Positions 4,587 to 39,121 of a stretch of 64,000 nt of DNA are shown here, piece by piece (position 1 is the first letter of the stretch; each line of letters opens with the position of its first letter). The notes beneath the pieces are model-generated. The model ran no database searches and was not told where the DNA came from. It saw only the letters and a list, made by a program, of their open reading frames with translations. The position numbers and the translations under genes were made by a program. The DNA is taken from contig NZ_CP149934.1 of the NCBI RefSeq assembly GCF_037949795.1, positions 248,001 to 312,000 on the forward strand, written 5' to 3'. The DNA is from Thioclava sp. GXIMD2076 (lineage in GTDB: Bacteria > Pseudomonadota > Alphaproteobacteria > Rhodobacterales > Rhodobacteraceae).

Positions 4587-4969
4587 TCGGTATCGCTCAC
4601 CTTCTCGAGCCATGTCACGGGGGAGCCGTCGATACTCTCCTGCACGGCAATATGGGACATGGCGGTTTGCGGTGCTGCCCCATGCCAGTGTTTCTCCCCT
4701 GCTGGGAAAAAGACCACATCGCCGGTGCTCACCTCCTCGACCGGCCCGCCCTCGCGCTGGACCCGCCCGCGCCCGAAGGTGATGATGATGGTCTGGCCTG
4801 CGGGATGGGTGTGCCATGCGGTTCGCGCGCCGGGCTCGAACGTGACATGGGCACCGCTCGTGCGGCCCGGTGCGTCGGCTTGGAACATCGGGTCGATGCG
4901 CACGGTGCCGGTGAAATAGGCCTCGGGGCCCGGAGCGGAGGGCGTGCTGCCTGCGCGGATGATTTTCAT
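4574..4969 (-). CDS. Single-domain cupin protein
   Basis: A 131-residue cupin. The first cupin motif is visible as WHTHPAGQ with the usual later Glu/Gly positions. The second is [12 protein letters not shown], so the His metal ligands HxH and a later H are present. No signal peptide. The start ATG has GGAGA about 6 bases upstream; a longer in-frame extension has no such site. It lies downstream of the YcjY-like hydrolase on the same strand and may share its transcript. Cupins of this kind are found beside carboxymuconolactone decarboxylase or hydrolase genes, but a reaction cannot be assigned from sequence. Confidence 0.8.
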
Positions 4970-27307: not shown

Positions 27308-28318
27308 TTAGCGGGTGATCTCGCGCTGCCAGCGCGCCCGCCAGTCGCCGACATTTGCCGCGACCTTCTCGGGATCGGGGAAATAGAGCGTCGGATAGAC
27401 TGCGGTAGGCACCGCTTCGGCGGCTGCCCCCTCGAGTTTGGTGTCGGGGTTCACGGGGCCTTCATACATCTTCTCGGCCAGACAGGATTGCGCCTCGGGC
27501 GAGAGTATCTCGTTGATGAACTTGTAGGCGCCCTCGGGATTGGCAGCGCCTTTAGGGATCACCAGCGTCACATTGATCCCGATCCCGCCTTCTTCGGGAT
27601 AGGCGATCTTCACCGGAACGCCGCTGGCTGCAGCAGAGGCGGTGCGGTCGCTATACCACGGCGCCATTGCGATCTCGCCACGCTCGAACATGCCGATCAG
27701 CTGATCTGCCTGCGTGTAATAGGCTTGTACATCCGGCGCGAGCTTGGCGATTGCCTCAAATCCGGGATCAAGATTGTCAATGCTGCCGCCATTCATCCGC
27801 GCCGCCGCGATCAGGAAATGCACGCCCGAGGTGCCCGAAATATCCGGTAGAGCGATTTTTCCCTTATAGGCCGGATCAAAGATCGCGCTCCAGCTGGTGG
27901 GCGGGGTTTTCACCAGTTTGGGGTTATAAGCGATAGCGGTCGCGGCCCACATGAACTGCACGAAGCTGTCTGCAGGCCCCCAGACCTTGGGATCGAGCTT
28001 AGCCGAATTGGACAGTTTCGCATGATCGAGCGGCTCGACCAGCCCTTCCGAACCCAGTTGCGTGGCAAAGGAATTGTCGATGTAAAGAACGTCGAAATCG
28101 CTGTGACCACCGGTCGCGCGCACCATCGAGGCGAATTGCGAGGAACTGCCTTCCTGCGTGATGACCTCATCACCCGTGGCTTTCTCGAAGGGCGCAATAT
28201 GGCATTGCGCCACCGCCTCGCCAAACGAGCCCCCGAACGTGCCCACCACAACATCCTCCGCCAGAGCCGGCGTGGCAACGGCTGCGAGAATCGCGCCGAA
28301 AACTGCAAACTGTTTCAT
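27308..28318 (-). CDS. ABC transporter substrate-binding protein (PotD/PotF type)
   Basis: Extracellular solute-binding protein of the polyamine-type family, 336 residues. It has a signal peptide (about 1-20, ALA-EDVVVG) and the family opening VVGTFGGSFGEA. The acidic residues that grip polyamine amines in PotD are not obviously conserved, so polyamine is only one candidate. It is the first gene of the operon; 65 bases upstream is a perfect TTTATCTTT-N4-AAAGATAAA repeat that also occurs by the marR gene. Confidence 0.88.
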   Translation of the reverse strand: MKQFAVFGAILAAVATPALAEDVVVGTFGGSFGEAVAQCHIAPFEKATGDEVITQEGSSSQFASMVRATGGHSDFDVLYIDNSFATQLGSEGLVEPLDHAKLSNSAKLDPKVWGPADSFVQFMWAATAIAYNPKLVKTPPTSWSAIFDPAYKGKIALPDISGTSGVHFLIAAARMNGGSIDNLDPGFEAIAKLAPDVQAYYTQADQLIGMFERGEIAMAPWYSDRTASAAASGVPVKIAYPEEGGIGINVTLVIPKGAANPEGAYKFINEILSPEAQSCLAEKMYEGPVNPDTKLEGAAAEAVPTAVYPTLYFPDPEKVAANVGDWRARWQREITR

Positions 28319-28380
28319 CTTGATCCCTGTTGTCGGTTTTTATGGGTCAAACCTGCGACGAGGAGATCGTTCTGTCTAGA

Positions 28381-28402
28381 TTTATCTTTTGTGAAAGATA
28401 AA
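28381..28402. promoter_or_regulatory. MarR operator candidate upstream of the importer operon
   Basis: Perfect 9-bp-arm inverted repeat TTTATCTTT-TGTG-AAAGATAAA in the promoter region of the binding-protein gene. The inner TATCTTT-N4-AAAGATA is repeated exactly at the 5' end of the neighbouring marR gene. Confidence 0.7.
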
Positions 28403-28449
28403 CAAAAGGCAAGTAGAGTGGACCTGCCTGTTATTTACACATTATGCCC

Positions 28450-28962
28450 TCAGGAATGCGCGTTAAGGAGCAGCACACGCCGCAGAAGGTTCTCGAGTTG
28501 CTGACGCTCCTCCGGCGAGAGCATCCGCACGAAATCGCGCTCGGCCTGTGCCTGCGGTGGCATGGTCCTGTCGGCCAATGCACACCCTTCGGGCGTCAGT
28601 TTCACCAGCACACCGCGCCCATCGCTAGGGTCGACCTCGCGTGTCACCAGCCCCTTGGCTTCGAGCCGGGCGATCTGGTTGGAAAGCCCGCCAGACGTGA
28701 CCACCAGGGTCGCCTGCAGCGACTTCGGTGTCATCGCATAGGGGGCACCGCTCGCGCGCAGGGTCGCCAGAATGGCATAGGTGCCATATTTGATCCCATG
28801 CCCATGCAGCACGCCGTTCATCCGGTCGTTGACGGCTTCGGCCAACCGCAGGATCCGCCCGGTGATCTGCTTGCCAGAGGTATCCAGATAGGGGACCTCC
28901 TCCGTCCAGAGCGAGATCGCCTCGTCTACAAAGTCACGTTCCTCATCGACAGAATAGGCCAT
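28450..28962 (-). CDS. MarR-family transcriptional regulator
   Basis: A 170-residue MarR protein. The winged HTH is visible as ILATLRASG, TPKSLQATLVVTSGGLSNQIARLEAKGLV and a wing EVDPSDGRGVLVKLT. The ATG giving MAYSVDEE is preferred; longer frames (ATG 39 bases and TTG 63 bases upstream) would run across a perfect inverted repeat that looks like its operator. It is encoded on the same strand just upstream of the importer operon. MarR proteins usually repress and are released by the pathway substrate, so it probably senses the imported compound. Confidence 0.88.
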   Translation of the reverse strand: MAYSVDEERDFVDEAISLWTEEVPYLDTSGKQITGRILRLAEAVNDRMNGVLHGHGIKYGTYAILATLRASGAPYAMTPKSLQATLVVTSGGLSNQIARLEAKGLVTREVDPSDGRGVLVKLTPEGCALADRTMPPQAQAERDFVRMLSPEERQQLENLLRRVLLLNAHS

Positions 28963-28979
28963 CTGGATATCCAATAAAT

Positions 28980-28997
28980 TATCTTTTCTTAAAGATA
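28980..28997. promoter_or_regulatory. MarR operator candidate at its own gene
   Basis: TATCTTT-TCTT-AAAGATA, a perfect 7-bp-arm repeat about 18 bases before the preferred marR start. It shares arms and 4-base spacing with the repeat upstream of the importer operon, which implies autoregulation. Confidence 0.65.
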
Positions 28998-29045
28998 CCA
29001 TCACGTAAATATGCGCCATTTTCAAGCAAACTCCGCATCCTTTTC

Positions 29046-29728: not shown

Positions 29729-30742
29729 TCAGCCCCGTGGGGATTCCTTCGCCGACCGCACGCTTTGCCGCCAGATGAGCGGAGTCTCCAACCGGCTTGC
29801 AGGCTCCTCGCCCAGAAGGATCTCCTCGACCCGTGCCGCTATGCGGTCATAAGGTTGGGCGAAACTGGTCAGCCCATAGCCCGCCCATCCCGCCTGCGGG
29901 ATATCGTCGAAACCGATCACGCAAAGATCGCGGGGAATGGCAAGTGCCAGTGTATCGCGGGCCATATCCATCAGCCCACAGGCCATCAGATCCGTCAGGC
30001 AGAAGATGCCCTCGGGAGGCGCCTGCCCCTGCAGCAGCGCCTGCGCCGCTTCCTGCCCCTCGGCATAGCCCGACCCATCGCCGCGCCAGACCACCGGATC
30101 GATCCCCTGCGCATGGCAGGCCTCGATAAAGAACGCCTCGCGCGCAGCAAGGCTCGGTGTGCCCTTGCGCGAGCCAGCAAGCGCGATCCGTCCGCAGCCC
30201 GCCGCCCGTAGCGCCGTGACAGCCTCCTGCATCGCACGCCGGTAATCGATGCGGATATGATGCACCCCCGGCCACTCCTCGCCGCGATTGATCGCGATCA
30301 CCTTCTGGCCCGCATCGATACAGGCGGTCACCATATCTGCGGGAGGCGTGCCCGACATCACGACCACCGCCGAGGCGCGGTAGCTCAGCGCCTGCGCGAG
30401 CGCCGCACCGGCGCTTTGCGGGTCGGTGCTGACATTGATGACCATCGCCATCCGGCCCGCGGCCTGCAACCGGCGCGTCAGCGCGTCGAGCAACAGCCCG
30501 TGATAGGGGCGGGTCAGGTTCGAGGCGAGCAGGCAGACGGGGCGGCTCGCATCTTTCGACAATCCCCGCGCCAGATGGTTGACGTGATAGTTCAGCGCCT
30601 CGGCCGCCGCCATCACCTTGGCCCGCGTGCGCGCCGAGACGCTCGCCCCATCGGTGAAGGTGCGTGATACAGCGGAGCGCGAGACCCCCGCAAGGGCCGC
30701 CACTTCGGCGGCGGAGGCAGGGCGCGGGGCGGGGTCGGACAT
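29729..30742 (-). CDS. LacI-family transcriptional regulator
   Basis: A 337-residue LacI/GalR repressor. The HTH is SAAEVAALAGVSRSAVSRTF with the hinge-helix LNYHVNHLARGL (residues 9-60), followed by a periplasmic-binding-protein-like sensor domain (about 65-330). The ATG giving MSDPAPR is used, 2 bases after the phosphatase stop. It is the last gene of the ABC/phosphatase operon, so it likely controls that operon; a perfect 18-bp palindrome in the operon promoter is a fitting target. LacI proteins nearly always sense sugars or sugar derivatives, a clue to the transported ligand. Confidence 0.92.
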   Translation of the reverse strand: MSDPAPRPASAAEVAALAGVSRSAVSRTFTDGASVSARTRAKVMAAAEALNYHVNHLARGLSKDASRPVCLLASNLTRPYHGLLLDALTRRLQAAGRMAMVINVSTDPQSAGAALAQALSYRASAVVVMSGTPPADMVTACIDAGQKVIAINRGEEWPGVHHIRIDYRRAMQEAVTALRAAGCGRIALAGSRKGTPSLAAREAFFIEACHAQGIDPVVWRGDGSGYAEGQEAAQALLQGQAPPEGIFCLTDLMACGLMDMARDTLALAIPRDLCVIGFDDIPQAGWAGYGLTSFAQPYDRIAARVEEILLGEEPASRLETPLIWRQSVRSAKESPRG

Positions 30743-30744
30743 GT

Positions 30745-31377
30745 CTAGCCCTCTGGCAGATACGGCGTGATCATCCGTGCCATTCTGGCCGACCAGAGGG
30801 CCGCGTCCACCAGAACCTGCTTGGGCGCCTGCGGCCATTCCGAAGGGTGCAGCGCGCGCGCCACACGGATATGGTCGATCGCCGCCTGCAGCGTGGGATA
30901 GGTGTCGGGGCATTCGAGATGCAAAAACAGCGCCACCAGTGTCACCGATCGCGAGCGACCGCCACGGCAGTTCACGAGGATATTGCCGGTCCCCTGCCAC
31001 GGATAGCTGGGCTTGTCGGGAAGGGTCTGACCGATCAGCCCCTTCAGCTGGTAATAGCCCGCCAGCAGCATCGGCGCGGGATTGCCCGCACCATCGATGA
31101 TGCCGAGCTTGTAATAGCGCACGGGTCCCCAGCCGAAGGGCAGCGCCTGCGCCTCGGGATCGGGACGGGTGACCATATTGATATCGAGGTTCACGGCACA
31201 ATTGAGCACCGTGCCGATCCCGTGCGCCGCCAGCAATGCCGGATCGGAGGCTGCGTGTTTGTTGCCGATATAAAGGTCGATCCCCGCCGGATCGGTATGG
31301 ACCCTGTGCAGTGGCGCGCGCCCGATATCGGCCTTGCGGAAGGCCTCCTGTAACGCGCTCGTGTCAAGATCATTCAT
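30745..31377 (-). CDS. Dual-specificity-type (CX5R) phosphatase
   Basis: A 210-residue protein with a cysteine-phosphatase P-loop: C137-RGGRS-R143 followed by S and a hydrophobic helix. The residue before Cys is Asn instead of the usual His (VNCRGG). An Asp in GIIDGAGNP (about 95) is about 40 residues upstream, where the general acid of dual-specificity phosphatases lies. No signal peptide. Its start overlaps the end of the inositol-phosphatase gene by 8 bases. Given the operon it more likely dephosphorylates a small phosphosugar or polyol phosphate than a protein; this is inference. Confidence 0.78.
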   Translation of the reverse strand: MNDLDTSALQEAFRKADIGRAPLHRVHTDPAGIDLYIGNKHAASDPALLAAHGIGTVLNCAVNLDINMVTRPDPEAQALPFGWGPVRYYKLGIIDGAGNPAPMLLAGYYQLKGLIGQTLPDKPSYPWQGTGNILVNCRGGRSRSVTLVALFLHLECPDTYPTLQAAIDHIRVARALHPSEWPQAPKQVLVDAALWSARMARMITPYLPEG

Positions 31378-32197
31378 CGCGATCTCCCTCTTCTGCGGGG
31401 AAGATCAGGGCCAGATCGAGCCCCGATATCCCCGCCATTTGCGCCGCGATCGCGGGGGTGGCGGCCAGCACGGGGCGCGTGTCGAGGAGTGAGAGGCCCT
31501 CCGGCACCTTCGCCACCACCCCGCCGGCCTCGCGCACCATCAACAGGCCCGCCACGCAATCCCAGCTGTTCATCGAGATCTCCAGATAGCCGTCGGAGCG
31601 GCCAGAGGCCACATAGGCCAGCGCAAGCCCGCCCGAGCCCGAGCGCCGGATATTCGCGCCCGCGGTGATCGCCGCCTCCTGCGCCTGCAGATAGGGTGCC
31701 AGCGGATGACGGCGCGACCAGCCCATCTCGAGACAGGCCGTGCCCATATCGGGCGTCTTTGTCACGCGGACGGGCGCCCCGTTCAGGCTGCAACCGTGCC
31801 CGCGCCGCGCCTGCCAGCGCTCGCCCGTTACCGGCTGGTGGATCGCGGCCAGCACGGCCTCGCCCGCAAGGCAGAAGGCCACGATCACGCAGAAATGCGG
31901 TACGCCACGCGCGAAATTGGCGGTGCCGTCGATCGGGTCGATTACCCATGTGGCATGGGCGGGCGTGCCGCCGCCCTCCTCGCCCAGGATGGCATCCTGA
32001 GGGAAGCGTTCCGCGATCTCCGCGCGGATCAGCGCCTCCACGGCGAGGTCGGTCTCGGTCAGGAAATCCTGAGCCCCCTTGAGGGAGAAATCGCCCGCAT
32101 TACGGGTGCGGAAGCCATTCAGCGCGAGGGCCGTGGCACGCGCCATCATGTCGGACAGGAAGGCTTCGCGGGCGTCGAGGTCTGGGATCTGGGTCAA
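31370..32197 (-). CDS. Inositol-monophosphatase-family phosphatase
   Basis: Mg-dependent sugar/inositol phosphatase of the IMPase superfamily, about 275 residues. Motifs are GEEGGG (first metal Glu), WVIDPIDGTANFARG (DPIDGT core) and NSWDCVAGLLMVREAGG (third metal Asp). A TTG start at 32197 is proposed because it preserves the N-terminal helix; the first ATG in frame is 48 bases further in and would cut this helix. It lies 58 bases after the binding-protein gene, separated by a hairpin. It may act on histidinol phosphate or inositol phosphate as family members do, but the operon suggests the imported phospho-compound. Confidence 0.85.
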   Translation of the reverse strand: MTQIPDLDAREAFLSDMMARATALALNGFRTRNAGDFSLKGAQDFLTETDLAVEALIRAEIAERFPQDAILGEEGGGTPAHATWVIDPIDGTANFARGVPHFCVIVAFCLAGEAVLAAIHQPVTGERWQARRGHGCSLNGAPVRVTKTPDMGTACLEMGWSRRHPLAPYLQAQEAAITAGANIRRSGSGGLALAYVASGRSDGYLEISMNSWDCVAGLLMVREAGGVVAKVPEGLSLLDTRPVLAATPAIAAQMAGISGLDLALIFPAEEGDRDE

Positions 32198-32216
32198 GGT
32201 CGGTCTTTCTGTAAAG

Positions 32217-32238
32217 GGGTCCGGCGCATACCGGACCC
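32217..32238 (-). promoter_or_regulatory. Hairpin between binding-protein and phosphatase genes
   Basis: Perfect 8-bp stem GGGTCCGG / CCGGACCC with a 6-base loop, 17 bases after the binding-protein stop on the transcript. No T-run follows. Probably an mRNA 3'-end stabiliser or partial attenuator within the operon. Confidence 0.55.
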
Positions 32239-32255
32239 GATCAACGGGTCGTCGG

Positions 32256-33365
32256 TTACTGGCCCAGCTGGCCTGCACGCGCCAGCGCCCAGAGATCCTG
32301 CCAGTCCTGCCGCGCCACCCAGTCATCGCCCGAGGTGGCAGTGTCATAGTTCAGCATCTTGTCGGCATAACCGGCCACACCGGAGGGTTCGTCGGCCGGC
32401 ACCGCATTCTCGCGATTGGTGGACATCTTGCCATCAACCGCCTGTGGTGCCCAGCCCGCTTCGGTCAGCATGTAATGGGTGAACAGCTTGGCGGCGGCGG
32501 GGCTGTCGGTCCGAGTCATGGTAAGCATGAAGCTCGGATAGAACAGCCCCACCATCGGCGACATCGAGGCACAGATGCCGAGCTTCATCCCGTTCTCGTT
32601 CTCGCGGAACTTGGCGGTGGACATGATCCCGATGAAATTCTCAGTGGTATCGGGGGCGCCCACGGCTGCGGCCACGTCACTATCGGAATTGGTCAGGAGC
32701 GGCTGGTTGGCCGCCAGTGCGGCCACGAAGGCCTCGGTCGCGGAAGCAAAACCGGTCTTCAGGGGCTTGCCGTAATGTGCCTCATAGGCGGCGGCCACCT
32801 GTGTATCGTAATGCATGGCAAGCTGGTTGAACCAGTCGGTATACATCGCCTTGGCCTGCGGGTCGGGCATGGAAACATGCCCCTTCCATTCGGGGTCGGT
32901 CAGTGCCCAGATATTATCGACAGGACAGCTCTGGTTGAGCCCGGTATTATAGGCCCAGACCACGGGCGCGTTCGAGACCACGAGCGGGCTCTGATAGCGC
33001 GCATCGATCTTGCCCACCATATCCTCGGGGACATAGCTTGTCACATAGCCCGGCTTGATGAGCTGCGCGGTGGCCGCCGGAAGATCCGAGAGGATCACCA
33101 CATCGGCCTGCACATTGCCCGCCTTGGCCTCGCCCGAGACAATCTTGATGATCTGCGGGGCCTTGGCCTTGGTGCCGGTCGCCTCGAGCCCGTAGGCTTT
33201 GGCAAAGGCCGCCGCCTGTTCGCGGATCTTGCCGGTGCTGTCATAGACCGTCAGCGCGGGCTCGGTCTTGGCACGGGCCAGAAGCCCCGCCTCGTCGAAA
33301 CCGTCGGCAAAGGCTGGGGACGTAAGCGCGGTGGTCAGCGCCGCGATATAAGGAAGGGATTTCAT
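32256..33365 (-). CDS. FbpA/AfuA-type ABC substrate-binding protein
   Basis: Periplasmic binding protein of the ferric/phospho-sugar type (AfuA/FbpA superfamily), 369 residues. It has a signal peptide (about 1-20, AFA-DGFDEA) and typical stretches VYDSTGKI, WAYNTGL and DPEWKGHVSMPDP. I see no adjacent Tyr pair, which ferric-binding FbpA proteins use as iron ligands. With two phosphatases and a LacI regulator in the operon, a phosphorylated sugar or polyol ligand is more likely than iron, as shown for Actinobacillus AfuA. Standard annotation would call it an iron-binding protein. Confidence 0.85.
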   Translation of the reverse strand: MKSLPYIAALTTALTSPAFADGFDEAGLLARAKTEPALTVYDSTGKIREQAAAFAKAYGLEATGTKAKAPQIIKIVSGEAKAGNVQADVVILSDLPAATAQLIKPGYVTSYVPEDMVGKIDARYQSPLVVSNAPVVWAYNTGLNQSCPVDNIWALTDPEWKGHVSMPDPQAKAMYTDWFNQLAMHYDTQVAAAYEAHYGKPLKTGFASATEAFVAALAANQPLLTNSDSDVAAAVGAPDTTENFIGIMSTAKFRENENGMKLGICASMSPMVGLFYPSFMLTMTRTDSPAAAKLFTHYMLTEAGWAPQAVDGKMSTNRENAVPADEPSGVAGYADKMLNYDTATSGDDWVARQDWQDLWALARAGQLGQ

Positions 33366-33386
33366 CTGTCTCTCCTAGACAAAGGG

Positions 33387-34502
33387 TCAGGCCAGCCCCG
33401 CCAGCGCGCGGGAGTGGGAAGGCCCTGCGGTCATCCGCGAGGCAAGGGGCGCGAGGGCATGGCCCTGCGCACAGAAAAGATGCAGCGCCTCGGGACGCGC
33501 CCGCAGATAGACGGGTGCCCCCAATTGCCAGCGTGGCGGCAGCTGCGTGGTATGGGTCAGCGTCAGCGGTCCCGCCTCGTCGGCAAGGCGGAGGGTGATG
33601 ATCCACGCCCCGCCCGTGGGCAGGATCTCCTCGATCACCGCCGGAAGGCCGCTCTCGTGTCCGAGCGAGATCCCCTCCGGACGGAGACCAAGCATCTCGC
33701 CCTGCGGATGCGCGCCCTGCATCAGCGCACGGGCGGTATGACTGCGTGCGGGGATCAGATTGATCGGCGGGTTGCCGATGAACTCGGCCACGAAGCGGTT
33801 GGCAGGTTGACCATAGATCTCGTCGGGGCGCCCGAATTGCTGCAGGCGTCCCCCGGCCATCACCGCGATATGGGTGGCAAGCGTCATCGCCTCCCATTGG
33901 TCATGGGTCACAAAGACGATGGTGGTGCCGAAATCGCGATGCAGCCGCGCCAGTTCGGCCCGCATCGAGAGCCGCAGCGCCGCATCGAGATTGGACAGCG
34001 GCTCGTCGAGCAGAAGCACCCCGGGCGAGACCGCCAGAGTGCGCGCGAGCGCCACCCGCTGCTGCTGCCCGCCCGACAGCTGGGCGGGATAGCGGTTCTC
34101 CAGCCCCTCGATACGCAGGGTCCGCACCATCTCGGCCACGCGGATCTTGCGCGCAGGTTTGGGCATTCGGGCGACCTTCAGACCGAAGGCGATATTCTCG
34201 GCCACCGTCATATGCGGCCAGAGCGCATAGGACTGGAACACGAGCCCCAGCCCGCGCTTCTCGGGCGGCACGAAGATGCCTTTGGCGGTGCTGTCGAGCA
34301 CTTGCTCACCGATGCGGATCTCGCCCCCCGTCGTGGCCTCGAGCCCGCAGATCATCCTGAGCGTGGTGGATTTCCCGCAGCCCGAGGGGCCGAGGATACA
34401 GGTGAAGGAGCCATGCTCGATGCTGAGCGTGAGGTCATCGACCGCGGGGGCCGCGCCTTTGGCATAGCGTTTCTCGAGATGGTCGAGTTGGATCATCGGC
34501 AT
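33387..34502 (-). CDS. ABC transporter ATP-binding protein (FbpC/UgpC type)
   Basis: A 371-residue ATPase. Walker A is GPSGCGKST, the Q-loop FQSYALWPH, the signature [14 protein letters not shown], Walker B LLLDEPLSNLDA and the H-loop VTHDQWEAM. A C-terminal TOBE domain (about 280-350) follows. It sits between the fused permease and the binding protein. A second Met two codons in (MIQLDHLEK) is an alternative start. It powers the fused permease. Confidence 0.92.
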   Translation of the reverse strand: MPMIQLDHLEKRYAKGAAPAVDDLTLSIEHGSFTCILGPSGCGKSTTLRMICGLEATTGGEIRIGEQVLDSTAKGIFVPPEKRGLGLVFQSYALWPHMTVAENIAFGLKVARMPKPARKIRVAEMVRTLRIEGLENRYPAQLSGGQQQRVALARTLAVSPGVLLLDEPLSNLDAALRLSMRAELARLHRDFGTTIVFVTHDQWEAMTLATHIAVMAGGRLQQFGRPDEIYGQPANRFVAEFIGNPPINLIPARSHTARALMQGAHPQGEMLGLRPEGISLGHESGLPAVIEEILPTGGAWIITLRLADEAGPLTLTHTTQLPPRWQLGAPVYLRARPEALHLFCAQGHALAPLASRMTAGPSHSRALAGLA

Positions 34503-34505
34503 CGG

Positions 34506-36320
34506 TCAGCTCTCCAGACCTTGGGCCAGTCCGTTGCGGGTGAGCCGGTTGATCACAATCGTGCCCGCAAGGGCGATCAGCGCGATCATCAGCACCACGG
34601 CATTGGCGGCCTGGGTGTAGTTGTAATCGATCAAGCGTAGGGAATAGGTGGTCAGCACATCGGTCGCGGGCACGGCGAGGATGATGAAGAGACTGACCCC
34701 CTTGATCCCCGAGATGAAAGGCATGAGCACGGCACTCACCAGCGCGCCTTTCTGGATCGGCACGATGATGGCGCGCATGCGGTGCAACCAGCCCGCCCCC
34801 GCGATCCGCGCGCTTTCCTCGACCTCGCGCCCCAGCTGCGTCATCGCCGCAATCCCTGCGCGCGAGGCAAAGGGCATCTGGTCGGCCACCAATGCCAGAA
34901 GCAGGATATAGGGCGTGCTATAAAGCGCCGGGATCGGCCCGTGGGGGACGGCAAACAGCGACAGGAAGGCCGCGGCAAAGGCGATACCCGGCACCAGATA
35001 GGGGAAGAAGGTCACCTGCCGCAGCGCCACACCCACCGCCCGCACCGGCACGCGGGTGACCACATAGCCCACCAGCAGCCCCGCGAGGCCCGCCATCAGC
35101 GAGGCCGCGCCCACAATGCGAACCGAATTCCAGACCGCCGCCCAGAATTCGGGCGCGCGCAGGATGCCGGTCTTGAGCGCGACCGTGTCGAGCCCGGTGC
35201 CGATCCAGTAGGCCAGCGTGAAATTGGCGGCATTGAAGCGGCCCGGCAGGATCATCACCGTCGAGAGTGCGAGCACCCCCAATGGCACAAGCACCGACAC
35301 CAGCACCACCCCAAGGACGAGCCCGAATGCCGGAAGATGCCAGCGCCCCAGAGTGCGGCGGCGTTCCATCGCGCCCTTGCCTCCGATCGTGGCAAAACGT
35401 CTGGCCTCGCGCATCATCCATGTATCGATGCCCAGCGTCACCATCCCCACCAGCATGATCACCCCCGCAAAAACCGCCGCCATGCCGGTCTGCTGGGTGC
35501 CGATGGCGCGGTAGAGCGATGTTGCCAGCGTCTCGAAATGTACGGGCAGGCCCAGAACATAGGGCACGGAGAACTCGCCCACCGCATCGGCAAACATCAG
35601 AAGGCAGGCCGACATCACCGCAGGCCGCATCAGCGGCACCACGATCCGCAGCGCGATGGTGCCCCGACCCGCACCCAGCATCCGCCCCGCCTTCTCGAGC
35701 TGGCTGTCCATGCGTTTGAGCGCATTGCCCACCAGCAGGATGACGAAGGGGATATAGTTGAGCACCATGATCACGATGGTCGGAACCGCGCCATAGGAGA
35801 TCCAGTCGGGCAGCTGCAGCCCCATCGCCTCGAACCAGCCGGGCTGGCCACCGGTGGTGGCGTTCTTGAAGAGCACAGTCCATGCGAGGGCGAAGGTCCA
35901 TGCCGGCAGCATGAAAGGCACGATGAGCGCGGTGGAGAGCCAGCGCCTGCCCCGGAGATCCGAGCGCACCAGAAGCCATGCGAGCCCCGTGCCGATCCCC
36001 AGCGCCAGCGCGGTCGAGAGGCCTGCCACGGCGAGCGTGTTCCATAATGGCGTCCAGAAGAGGATCTGCGACATGCGCGAGAACAGCGCACGTCCGAGAT
36101 AATAGCCCGTCCAGCTGCCGGCCTCTCCGCCTGTGCGCGCCGTATCACCGGCCTGCGTGACGAAGATATCCGACAGGATGGTGCACACGGGCGCCACGAT
36201 CAGCGCGCAGAAGACCGCCAGCAGCACGAGCCCGATCGCGAGTGTCGGATCCTGCCGTGCGACGGCGAACCGGTGGCGCAACCGCGCCGCTTTGCCTGCT
36301 GTTGTATCGAACCCGATCAT
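34506..36320 (-). CDS. Fused two-domain ABC permease (FbpB/AfuB type)
   Basis: A 604-residue permease with about 12 helices in two homologous halves, each carrying an EAA loop (EKAGRMLGAGRGTIALRIVVPLMRP and EESARIAGAGWLHRMRAIIVPIQKG). This duplicated form is typical of FbpB/AfuB. The ATG giving MIGFDTTAG is chosen, with GGTGGG upstream. It is the first gene of the six-gene operon, with a perfect palindrome about 60 bases upstream. It forms the whole membrane channel with one ATPase dimer. Confidence 0.92.
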   Translation of the reverse strand: MIGFDTTAGKAARLRHRFAVARQDPTLAIGLVLLAVFCALIVAPVCTILSDIFVTQAGDTARTGGEAGSWTGYYLGRALFSRMSQILFWTPLWNTLAVAGLSTALALGIGTGLAWLLVRSDLRGRRWLSTALIVPFMLPAWTFALAWTVLFKNATTGGQPGWFEAMGLQLPDWISYGAVPTIVIMVLNYIPFVILLVGNALKRMDSQLEKAGRMLGAGRGTIALRIVVPLMRPAVMSACLLMFADAVGEFSVPYVLGLPVHFETLATSLYRAIGTQQTGMAAVFAGVIMLVGMVTLGIDTWMMREARRFATIGGKGAMERRRTLGRWHLPAFGLVLGVVLVSVLVPLGVLALSTVMILPGRFNAANFTLAYWIGTGLDTVALKTGILRAPEFWAAVWNSVRIVGAASLMAGLAGLLVGYVVTRVPVRAVGVALRQVTFFPYLVPGIAFAAAFLSLFAVPHGPIPALYSTPYILLLALVADQMPFASRAGIAAMTQLGREVEESARIAGAGWLHRMRAIIVPIQKGALVSAVLMPFISGIKGVSLFIILAVPATDVLTTYSLRLIDYNYTQAANAVVLMIALIALAGTIVINRLTRNGLAQGLES

Positions 36321-36380
36321 TGCCCACCCGTCCTGTTGTCGGGGCTGTTCTAGGAGCAGCGCATGACAGGGAAGTGACAA

Positions 36381-36398
36381 TTTGCACATATGTGCAAA
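36381..36398. promoter_or_regulatory. Perfect 18-bp palindrome, LacI operator candidate
   Basis: TTTGCACATATGTGCAAA, fully self-complementary, about 60 bases before the start of the fused permease gene. LacI-family dimers bind such 14-20-bp palindromes; the operon encodes a LacI regulator at its far end. Confidence 0.7.
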
Positions 36399-36813: not shown

Positions 36814-38109
36814 TTGGACTTGGCTTTGCCCGCACTCTTCATCATCGTCTTTGTTTCCATCTCGCTTGTGGCGGGCTCGGCCATCGCCTACCTGATCGGC
36901 GCCTCTGCGGTCCTGACCTTCCTTGCCGTCGGCAAGGACCAGTTTCTCGCCGTGCTTCCCCAACGCCTCTTCAGCCAGCTCGACAGCTTCGCCTTCCTCG
37001 CAATGCCGCTCTTCATTCTGGCAGGGGACCTGATGAACCGCGGCGGCGTCGCCAATGCGCTGATCGAATTCTCGATGGCGGTCTTCGGCCGTCTCAAAGG
37101 CGGCCTTGGCCATGTGAATGTGGTGACCTCCGTGTTCTTTGCCGGTGTGTCGGGCTCGGCCACGGCAGATGCGGCGGCCCTCGGCAACTCGCTGGTGCCC
37201 GAGATGGAACGCCGTGGCTATACGCGCGAATATGCCTCGGCCATCACCGGTGCCTCATCGATCATCGGGCCGATCATTCCACCCTCCTCGATCATGATCT
37301 TCTACGGCGCGCTGATGGGCACCAATGTGACCGCGCTTTTCGCTGCTGGTATCGTTCCGGGCCTGCTGCTCGCGGTCATGCTGATGGCCATGAACGCCTA
37401 TTTTGCCCATCGCGACGACCATCCGGGCGGCAAGGATCTGGATCTTCCGCGGTTCTGGCCGTCGCTCCTGCGCGCCATCCCGGCCCTGATGTTGCCCGCG
37501 ATCATTCTTGGCGGTACGCTTTTCGGCATCATGACGCCTGCCGAGGCCGCTGCCGTGGCCGTGCTTGCCGCCATTGTCGTCGGGATGGGCTACGGCCATC
37601 TGACCTTCAGCGGCATCCTCGATAGCCTGATGCGCACCGCCGTCATGCTGGGTGGGCTCTTCATCCTGCTCTGCGCCATCTCCACCTTCTCCTATATTGC
37701 CGCCCTTGAGGAATGGCCGCAGGCGATCCAGCATCTCGTGCAGGGATGGGGCCTGGGCCCGATCGGTTATCTGATGCTCATCAACGCGATCTTCCTCGGC
37801 GCGGGTATGGTGATGGATGTAAAAGCGGCTGTGGCCCTCTTCGCCCCGATCTTCGTGCCTGCGGCACTGGCAATGGGCATCGACCCTGTGCATCTGGCGA
37901 TCGTGATCTGCTTCAATATCACCGTGGGTCTGCTGTCGCCGCCGCTGGGGTCGGTCCTGCTGATCCTTTCGACCGTGGTGAAGCTCGAATACTGGACGCT
38001 CATCCGCGTGACCCTGCCCTTCCTCGTGGCCGAAATCGCGCTGCTTTTCGTGCTGACCTATGTCCCTTCCCTGACCCTGGCGCTTCCCCATGCGCTTGGC
38101 CTGCACTGA
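36814..38109 (+). CDS. TRAP transporter large permease (DctM family)
   Basis: A DctM subunit of about 431 residues and 12 helices. Motifs are FLAMPLFILAGDLMNRGG, FFAGVSGSATADAAALG, GASSIIGPIIPPSSIMI and GLLSPPLGSVLL. The start is unusual: an in-frame TGA stands immediately before a TTG at 36814, no ATG or clear ribosome site is near, and later TTG codons at 36820 and 36826 are alternatives. The first helix is intact, so little if anything is missing. Gene order here is dctM, dctP, dctQ rather than the common P-Q-M. Confidence 0.85.
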   Translation: MDLALPALFIIVFVSISLVAGSAIAYLIGASAVLTFLAVGKDQFLAVLPQRLFSQLDSFAFLAMPLFILAGDLMNRGGVANALIEFSMAVFGRLKGGLGHVNVVTSVFFAGVSGSATADAAALGNSLVPEMERRGYTREYASAITGASSIIGPIIPPSSIMIFYGALMGTNVTALFAAGIVPGLLLAVMLMAMNAYFAHRDDHPGGKDLDLPRFWPSLLRAIPALMLPAIILGGTLFGIMTPAEAAAVAVLAAIVVGMGYGHLTFSGILDSLMRTAVMLGGLFILLCAISTFSYIAALEEWPQAIQHLVQGWGLGPIGYLMLINAIFLGAGMVMDVKAAVALFAPIFVPAALAMGIDPVHLAIVICFNITVGLLSPPLGSVLLILSTVVKLEYWTLIRVTLPFLVAEIALLFVLTYVPSLTLALPHALGLH

Positions 38110-38134
38110 CCCTCCCACCCAAAGGATCTTCCCT

Positions 38135-39121
38135 ATGACCCGTTTTGCTCCCCTCATGGCCACTGCGGCCCTCCTTCTCGGCACCACCGCGCTGCAGGCC
38201 TCCGAGATCAAGATCGGCTTCAACAATGTCGATGATGCCGAGATCAATGGCGAGGCCGCCTTCGCCCATGGCTTCCGCGATGCGCTCAAAGGCACCGATT
38301 TCACCGTCTCGCTCTTCCCATCCGATACGCTGGGCAAGGAAAAGGAACGCCTCGACCAGGTCTCGACCGGCCTTCTCGAGATCGATCTGGGCGCGATCTC
38401 CACCGCCTATTCGCTCTCGCCGCTGCTCAAGGGCGCGACCCTGCCTTTCTTCTTCAGCGATGACGCGGAGATGGACAAGATCACCAGCGAGCCCGCGATG
38501 ATGGAGGCCTTCAACGCCCCCATGCTCGAAACCGGTGTGCGCTTCGAGGGTCTCAACATCATCGGCACGCCGATGGGTATCCACAACTCCAAGCACCCCG
38601 TATCCACCGTCGAGGACCTGTCGGATCTGCGCTTCCGCGCGCTCAATGGCGAGCAGCTCTCGCTGATGGAAGCGCTCGGCACCCATGGCACCGTGATCGC
38701 CTGGGCCGAGGTGGCCAACGCCATCCAGACCGGCGTGACCGATGGCTATTTCAACCCGCCCTCCTCCTCGCTGCGCACCGGCCATACGAGCTTCCTGAAA
38801 TATTACACCCCCGCCGATCTTTTCCCCTCGACCCGCGCGGTCATGATCTCGGATGACTGGTATCAGGGCCTCTCGGACGAGGAGAAGACCCAGATCGACG
38901 CGGCGCTTGCCGCCGGTTTCAAGGCCAATCGCGAGTGGATTGCGGACTGGTCCTCGAAAGTGGATGGCAAGCTCGAAGAAGCGGGCGTGACGATCACCCC
39001 GCTGGCCACAGGCGAGCGTGACAAGATGGAAGCGCTGGCCAAGCCGCTCTGGGCCACGACCCTGACCGCGGACGAGCTGAAAACATGGCAGGATGCCAAA
39101 GCGGCAGCTGACAGCGAGTAA
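38135..39121 (+). CDS. TRAP transporter substrate-binding protein (DctP family)
   Basis: Solute receptor of 328 residues with a signal peptide (about 1-21, LQA-SEIKI) and the DctP features FPSDTLGKEKERLDQV, GATLPFFF, LRFRALNGE and GVTDGYFNPP. The Arg in RFRALNG is the usual carboxylate-binding residue. AAAGGA precedes the ATG. It lies between the large and small permease genes. The following amidohydrolase hints at a carboxylate with an amide or cyclic-amide group. Confidence 0.9.
   Translation: MTRFAPLMATAALLLGTTALQASEIKIGFNNVDDAEINGEAAFAHGFRDALKGTDFTVSLFPSDTLGKEKERLDQVSTGLLEIDLGAISTAYSLSPLLKGATLPFFFSDDAEMDKITSEPAMMEAFNAPMLETGVRFEGLNIIGTPMGIHNSKHPVSTVEDLSDLRFRALNGEQLSLMEALGTHGTVIAWAEVANAIQTGVTDGYFNPPSSSLRTGHTSFLKYYTPADLFPSTRAVMISDDWYQGLSDEEKTQIDAALAAGFKANREWIADWSSKVDGKLEEAGVTITPLATGERDKMEALAKPLWATTLTADELKTWQDAKAAADSE

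Follow-up and report, generated by a model that had tools for sequence, protein, structure and literature searches.

A predicted importer of inositol phosphates under putative PhoB and LacI-type control in Thioclava and related proteobacteria

The nearest characterized system in kind to the operon that we analyze here is AfuABC, reported from Actinobacillus as a hexose/heptose-phosphate importer whose receptor, AfuA, coordinates the sugar with His205, Asp206, and Glu229 and binds the phosphate with Ser37 and Thr150 (PMC4546632). Our operon lies in a 64,000-nucleotide stretch of Thioclava sp. GXIMD2076 (contig NZ_CP149934.1, positions 248,001 to 312,000), called the window below. The features that AfuABC has in common with the operon are an FbpA-type receptor, an ATP-binding cassette (ABC) importer formerly taken as ferric, and a phosphorylated carbohydrate taken up intact, as we predict here. 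The two differ in content, control, and linked genes: the Thioclava-type operon adds two phosphatases, a LacI-family regulator, and a PHO box, and the genes linked to it in relatives are phytases. On sequence evidence (the genes, their conservation, a phosphatase fusion, the phytase and porin linkage in relatives, an operator, a PHO box, and iol genes), we consider it likely that the operon imports lower inositol phosphates under the control of PhoB and of its LacI-type regulator and that these compounds are finished to inositol inside the cell.

Two other systems are related in part. P5PA, which binds the active form of vitamin B6 in Actinobacillus (PMC8427247; structure 6wce), is of the FbpA type like the operon's receptor; its ligand, a phosphorylated organic compound as predicted here too, is a different one. 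Ugp imports glycerophosphodiesters in E. coli under the control of PhoB (PMC4415409). As predicted for the operon, it is an organic-phosphate importer under phosphate-starvation control. Its receptor family differs from that of the Thioclava-type operon, as does its substrate from the one predicted here, and it is not known to have a LacI-type repressor.

Operon conservation and the two phosphatases

All six genes of the operon are encoded by the minus strand, within 29729-36320 of the window, and are separated in operon order by 3, 21, 58, -8, and 2 bases, a layout that the first-pass annotation had described correctly. In that order they are as follows:

34506..36320, minus strand: fused double permease of an ABC importer, 604 amino acids, with PF00528 in two stretches of one chain
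33387..34502, minus strand: importer ATPase, 371 amino acids, with PF00005 and PF08402, Walker A GPSGCGKS, and LSGGQ
32256..33365, minus strand: periplasmic receptor of FbpA/AfuA-type fold, 369 amino acids, with PF13531; structure model with a predicted local distance difference test score (pLDDT) of 94.6
31370..32197, minus strand: phosphatase of the inositol monophosphatase (IMPase) family, 275 amino acids, with a TTG start at 32197; PF00459 at 198.5 bits (cutoff, 27)
30745..31377, minus strand: CX5R phosphatase of dual-specificity fold, 210 amino acids, with catalytic Cys137/Arg143 and candidate general acid Asp95
29729..30742, minus strand: LacI-family regulator, 337 amino acids, with PF00356 and PF13377 (sugar-binding-type domain)

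The best NCBIfam match of the permease, TIGR03262 (PhnU2), reached 131.4 bits, under the curated cutoff of 593.25 for a 2-aminoethylphosphonate permease.

One scan of named genomes yielded 171 stretches that encode a relative of the receptor, and the best 80 of these were kept as the loci counted below. All six genes are present in 71/80 loci, so that the phosphatases proved to be conserved with the importer, a point on which the first-pass annotation had said that its reading could fail. Counting fused forms, 58/80 loci have the six genes once each, on one strand, and in the order of the window; at the thresholds used, L008 has the receptor alone, and the permease and ATPase are in pieces in L069. 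The operon was found in Rhodobacterales, Rhizobiales, Marinomonas, Halomonas, Vibrio, and Enterobacterales.

We then looked at the two phosphatases. The IMPase-family enzyme carries the motifs DPIDGT and WDCVAG, which we take to be metal-site motifs of this family, known for acting on inositol monophosphates. The CX5R enzyme has the catalytic loop and the fold of a dual-specificity phosphatase and scored 30.3 bits against PF00782, under the curated cutoff of 33.5. A single frame of 473 to 519 residues encodes both enzymes, with the IMPase first, in 13/80 loci, all from Enterobacterales by their titles (the Pfam check was made on one such protein, from L045), and this natural fusion indicates that both act in one pathway. 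Since no signal peptide was evident by eye in the two phosphatases of the window or in the fused proteins inspected, they should act in the cytoplasm, after import. The CX5R enzyme may take off a phosphate that is a poor substrate for the IMPase, e.g., the axial 2-phosphate.

An enlarged form of the operon in Aminobacter, Mesorhizobium, Wenxinia, and relatives has 2 or 3 receptors, mostly a second IMPase-family gene, and a LacI gene that is mostly on the opposite strand. The 16 enlarged or altered loci (L047, L058, L068, L070, L072-L081, L085, and L087) all encode a calcineurin-like phosphoesterase, and 13 of them encode a HAD hydrolase. The extra phosphatases per operon suggest a compound bearing several phosphates. 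Because these two additional enzymes could cleave a diester, the cargo might be another polyphosphorylated organic compound, such as glycerophosphoinositol or a phosphate-bearing polyol from plants or algae, but the six genes of the simple operons include no phosphodiesterase and the linked enzymes are phytases, and we hold this to be quite improbable.

Linked phytases, porins, and inositol catabolism genes

Phytases of the beta-propeller (PF02333) and of the AppA-like and MINPP-like types (PF00328) act on inositol phosphates, as we propose for the operon. They are known to work outside the cytoplasm, whereas the operon's phosphatases would act on imported compounds. A phytase-family open reading frame is present in 19/80 loci, and all three types are represented. 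Beta-propeller phytases are found beside the operon in 8 Rhodobacterales loci (217 and 216 bits for the two that were tested; cutoff, 21), in Brenneria (L059, 287 bits), and, as a 254-residue piece, in Wenxinia (L085, 82 bits). AppA-like enzymes occur in 3 Enterobacterales loci (L055, L057, and L063); the L063 protein has the 3-phytase 2wnh as its best PDB match (E value, 6e-90), with glucose-1-phosphatase behind at 1e-40. MINPP-like enzymes are encoded in 6 Halomonas/Vreelandella loci, with a porin gene next in each case (PF13609 in L065), and the L065 enzyme has 4fdt as its best PDB match (E value, 8e-50). The association of three phytase types with the same operon in several lineages is hard to ascribe to a single accident of inheritance, even if the loci of any one lineage are related to each other. 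As a separate observation, the beta-propeller phytase has as its neighbor, in all 8 of these Rhodobacterales loci, a conserved protein whose N terminus is signal-like (L009, 4068-4709; L011, 2923-3708; L015, L018-L021, and L029), and the one that was tested had no Pfam match.

We also evaluated co-occurrence in an even sample of 394 genomes from the family to which the window belongs, where the CX5R enzyme was found in 9 genomes and PF02333 in 10. Both were present in 4 genomes versus 0.23 expected (hypergeometric P = 2.5e-5, uncorrected for kinship; 6.5e-4 when the genome with the partial phytase is left out), and the two genes were <6 kb apart in 3 of these 4. Judging from identical coordinates, the 80 loci already include these 4 genomes, which makes this the same signal with a fair denominator and no new sample. 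PF02333 was found in 14 and PF00328 in 18 of the 50 operon-holding genomes (our own and the 49 behind the loci), with no overlap (32 in all), and each was found in 2 of 14 control genomes; PF00328 also covers nonphytases, and its genome-wide search overlooked at least one case (L082, which holds one by the locus search).

An AfuABC-like import of hexose or other sugar phosphates, in which the phosphatases would free the sugar and the phytase neighbors would reflect a general scavenging of organic phosphorus, is unlikely in our view. Two different phosphatases that are kept together and fused fit a multiphosphate compound, imported hexose phosphates enter glycolysis without a phosphatase, and the linked genes are phytases of three types. 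The cargo named in the first-pass annotation, a phosphorylated sugar or polyol that perhaps bears more than one phosphate, is supported in kind and narrowed, with inositol phosphates rather than hexose phosphates as the likely compounds.

For inositol phosphates as the cargo, genes for inositol catabolism are also relevant. On the window's replicon (581.6 kb), where the window covers 248-312 kb and the operon 278-284 kb, iolE, iolD, and a bifunctional iolC/J gene are located at about 315-323 kb, that is, about 31-39 kb from the operon. iolE scored above the cutoff in 38/50 operon-holding genomes (our own included) versus 2/14 controls and, at a looser E value, in 43/50 versus 7/14; we take this co-occurrence as supportive only, because iol genes are common in these groups. 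Two equal-scoring iolE matches lie on the same contig (C3:318238 and C3:458448), perhaps from a duplicated inositol segment.

A promoter region with an operator and a PHO box

Three elements precede the permease gene:

36381..36398, unstranded: perfect 18-base-pair palindrome TTTGCACATATGTGCAAA, upstream of the operon, likely the operator bound by the LacI-type regulator that the operon encodes
36363..36380, minus strand: PHO box TTGTCACTTCCCTGTCAT, likely PhoB activation site, with 13/14 consensus positions, abutting the operator on the operon side
36347..36352, minus strand: putative -10-like hexamer TAGAAC, 10 bases past the PHO box

The palindrome TTTGCACATATGTGCAAA is the sole such site in the 4.1-Mb genome at up to 2 mismatches. 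With ≤2 mismatches, it precedes the operon in the window and in 60/79 permease-holding loci, and it recurs in Alpha- and Gammaproteobacteria. A genome search at ≤1 mismatch gave matches in 42/49 genomes, mostly at one place each, compared with 7 matches in 6 of the 49 genomes for the reversed pattern. Together with PF00356 and the sugar-binding-type domain, the predicted palindromic operator near the operon places the regulator in the LacI family.

In Tritonibacter (L011), three operators are present: one at 1872 before a porin gene (PF13609, 96 bits), one at 2974 before a gene pair ending in the phytase, and one at 4870 before the operon. The phytase pair and the operon diverge across the operator region in L015, L018-L021, and L029. 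On the Klebsiella pneumoniae plasmid pKP121-2 (L146, 1801-10555), genes for a KdgM porin and a histidine-type phosphatase stand in one row with the operon, whose own phosphatases are fused, and an operator bearing 1 mismatch is found in front of the permease. These operator sites and gene rows tie porin, phytase, and importer together. By eye, a second, degenerate element (CTTAGGTGC or similar) located between the operon and the phytase pair faces the latter in L015, L018, L019, L021, and L029, as does a possible PHO-box-like repeat. pKP121-2 itself is typed as conjugative (IncFIB/IncFII) and is of human blood origin, and transposase genes flank the operon segment on both sides.

In PhoB-activated promoters, a -10-like element typically lies downstream of a PHO box. 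The predicted PhoB site has CTGTCAT-like repeats 11 bases apart, consistent with the described consensus CTGTCAT-N4-CTGTCA(T/C), i.e., two CTGTCAT-like 7-mers 4 bases apart (PMC4415409, PMC3131613). We scored the regions that have an operator at ≤2 mismatches, the window included (n = 61), for a box located 0-3 bases from the operator. A PHO box of ≥10/14 was found in 47/61 regions, compared with 0/61 on the opposite side of the operator and with a mean of 0.21 (at most 3) in 2000 shuffles; when operators with 3 mismatches were admitted, the count was 48/75. With a PHO box and a -10-like element beside a LacI-type operator, one promoter appears to combine phosphate starvation with a LacI-type signal. 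The sugar-sensor control suggested earlier agrees with the operator and is extended, since phosphate starvation also appears to control the operon.

Receptor, proposed mechanism, and significance

The receptor has an FbpA-type fold, with invariant residues Lys46, Lys66, Lys252, Arg254, Lys313, and Arg352. It was not matched to AfuA by sequence and is 19% identical to it in a structure alignment. By fold, it comes closest to MctA (metal-citrate) and to ferric-binding proteins. This would accord with an importer of iron, either as such or in a chelate with citrate or phytate fragments, as would the 'iron ABC transporter permease' annotation of relatives; moreover, phytate chelates iron. We nevertheless regard iron as a very improbable cargo: the adjacent Tyr pair (YY) that binds Fe(III) in FbpA is absent from the window receptor, as already noted in the first-pass annotation, the promoter has a PHO box and a LacI-type operator, and the operon encodes two phosphatases. 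The earlier preference for a phosphorylated polyol over iron is further supported by the linked phytases, the operator shared with phytase and porin genes, and the phosphatase fusion.

Both annotated copies that we looked at are filed as an iron transporter. One is on pKP121-2 and the other on plasmid p3 of Thioclava sp. 'Guangxiensis', which is 99.3% identical to the window over 6692 bases, has an identical IMPase start (TTG), and names the first gene 'iron ABC transporter permease'. That strain came from mangrove soil. The window operon is flanked at 27308-29025 and 36814-39121 by another gene for an ABC receptor, accompanied by a MarR-type regulator, and by a TRAP transporter, and p3 has the same flanking neighbors.

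Several findings weigh against import of inositol phosphates. The ligands of the nearest solved receptors are metal-citrate, iron, or hexose phosphates, a diversity from which the fold does not single out a ligand. At the thresholds used, the IMPase is missing in L022, L023, L040, and L087, and the CX5R phosphatase is missing in L047, L058, and L070, the last also without LacI. No phytase was seen within the stretch examined in 61/80 loci, and histidine phosphatases include nonphytases too. The PHO box scored <10/14 in 14/61 regions, 9 of them from Enterobacterales; in the enlarged Aminobacter/Mesorhizobium-type loci, the best operator-like site before the permease has ≥3 mismatches, and no PHO box was found at the usual place in those that were scored. 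Our own genome has no match to PF02333 or PF00328, the two phytase families searched, for which reason this strain may scavenge inositol-phosphate fragments released by others.

From the sequence features we infer the ligand, the division of labor between the phosphatases, the inducer, and the working of both DNA sites. We propose that lower myo-inositol phosphates, the partial breakdown products of phytate, would enter as whole molecules, supplied by phytases outside the cytoplasm (their own enzymes in many relatives and those of other organisms in the Thioclava strain) and by an outer-membrane porin. The receptor would pass them to the fused permease and the ATPase, and the CX5R and IMPase-family enzymes, each acting on different phosphates, would release phosphate and leave myo-inositol, which would feed the iol pathway, whose genes the same replicon carries. 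For transcription, PhoB would have to be at the PHO box during phosphate starvation, and the LacI-type repressor would have to leave the adjacent palindrome, probably in response to inositol or an inositol phosphate.

In the open-access literature searched, which leaves out subscription journals and preprints, we found neither a bacterial inositol-phosphate importer nor this operon, which could be contained under another name in PhoB-regulon lists of Sinorhizobium meliloti. We think it somewhat probable that this is the first described bacterial inositol-phosphate transport system, that it makes up, together with the porin and the phytase, a complete module from phytate to inositol, and that its promoter is an AND gate in which PhoB would report the lack of phosphate and the LacI-type repressor the presence of an inositol compound.

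Phytate is the phosphorus store of plants and a major organic phosphorus pool of plants and soils, and in the usual view bacteria that use it remove its phosphates outside the cytoplasm. If our proposal is true, an importer of partly dephosphorylated inositol would change this picture and explain the fate of the fragments left by phytases. It would also correct the 'iron transporter' annotation and provide a testable substrate for both phosphatases, including a bacterial enzyme of the dual-specificity type.

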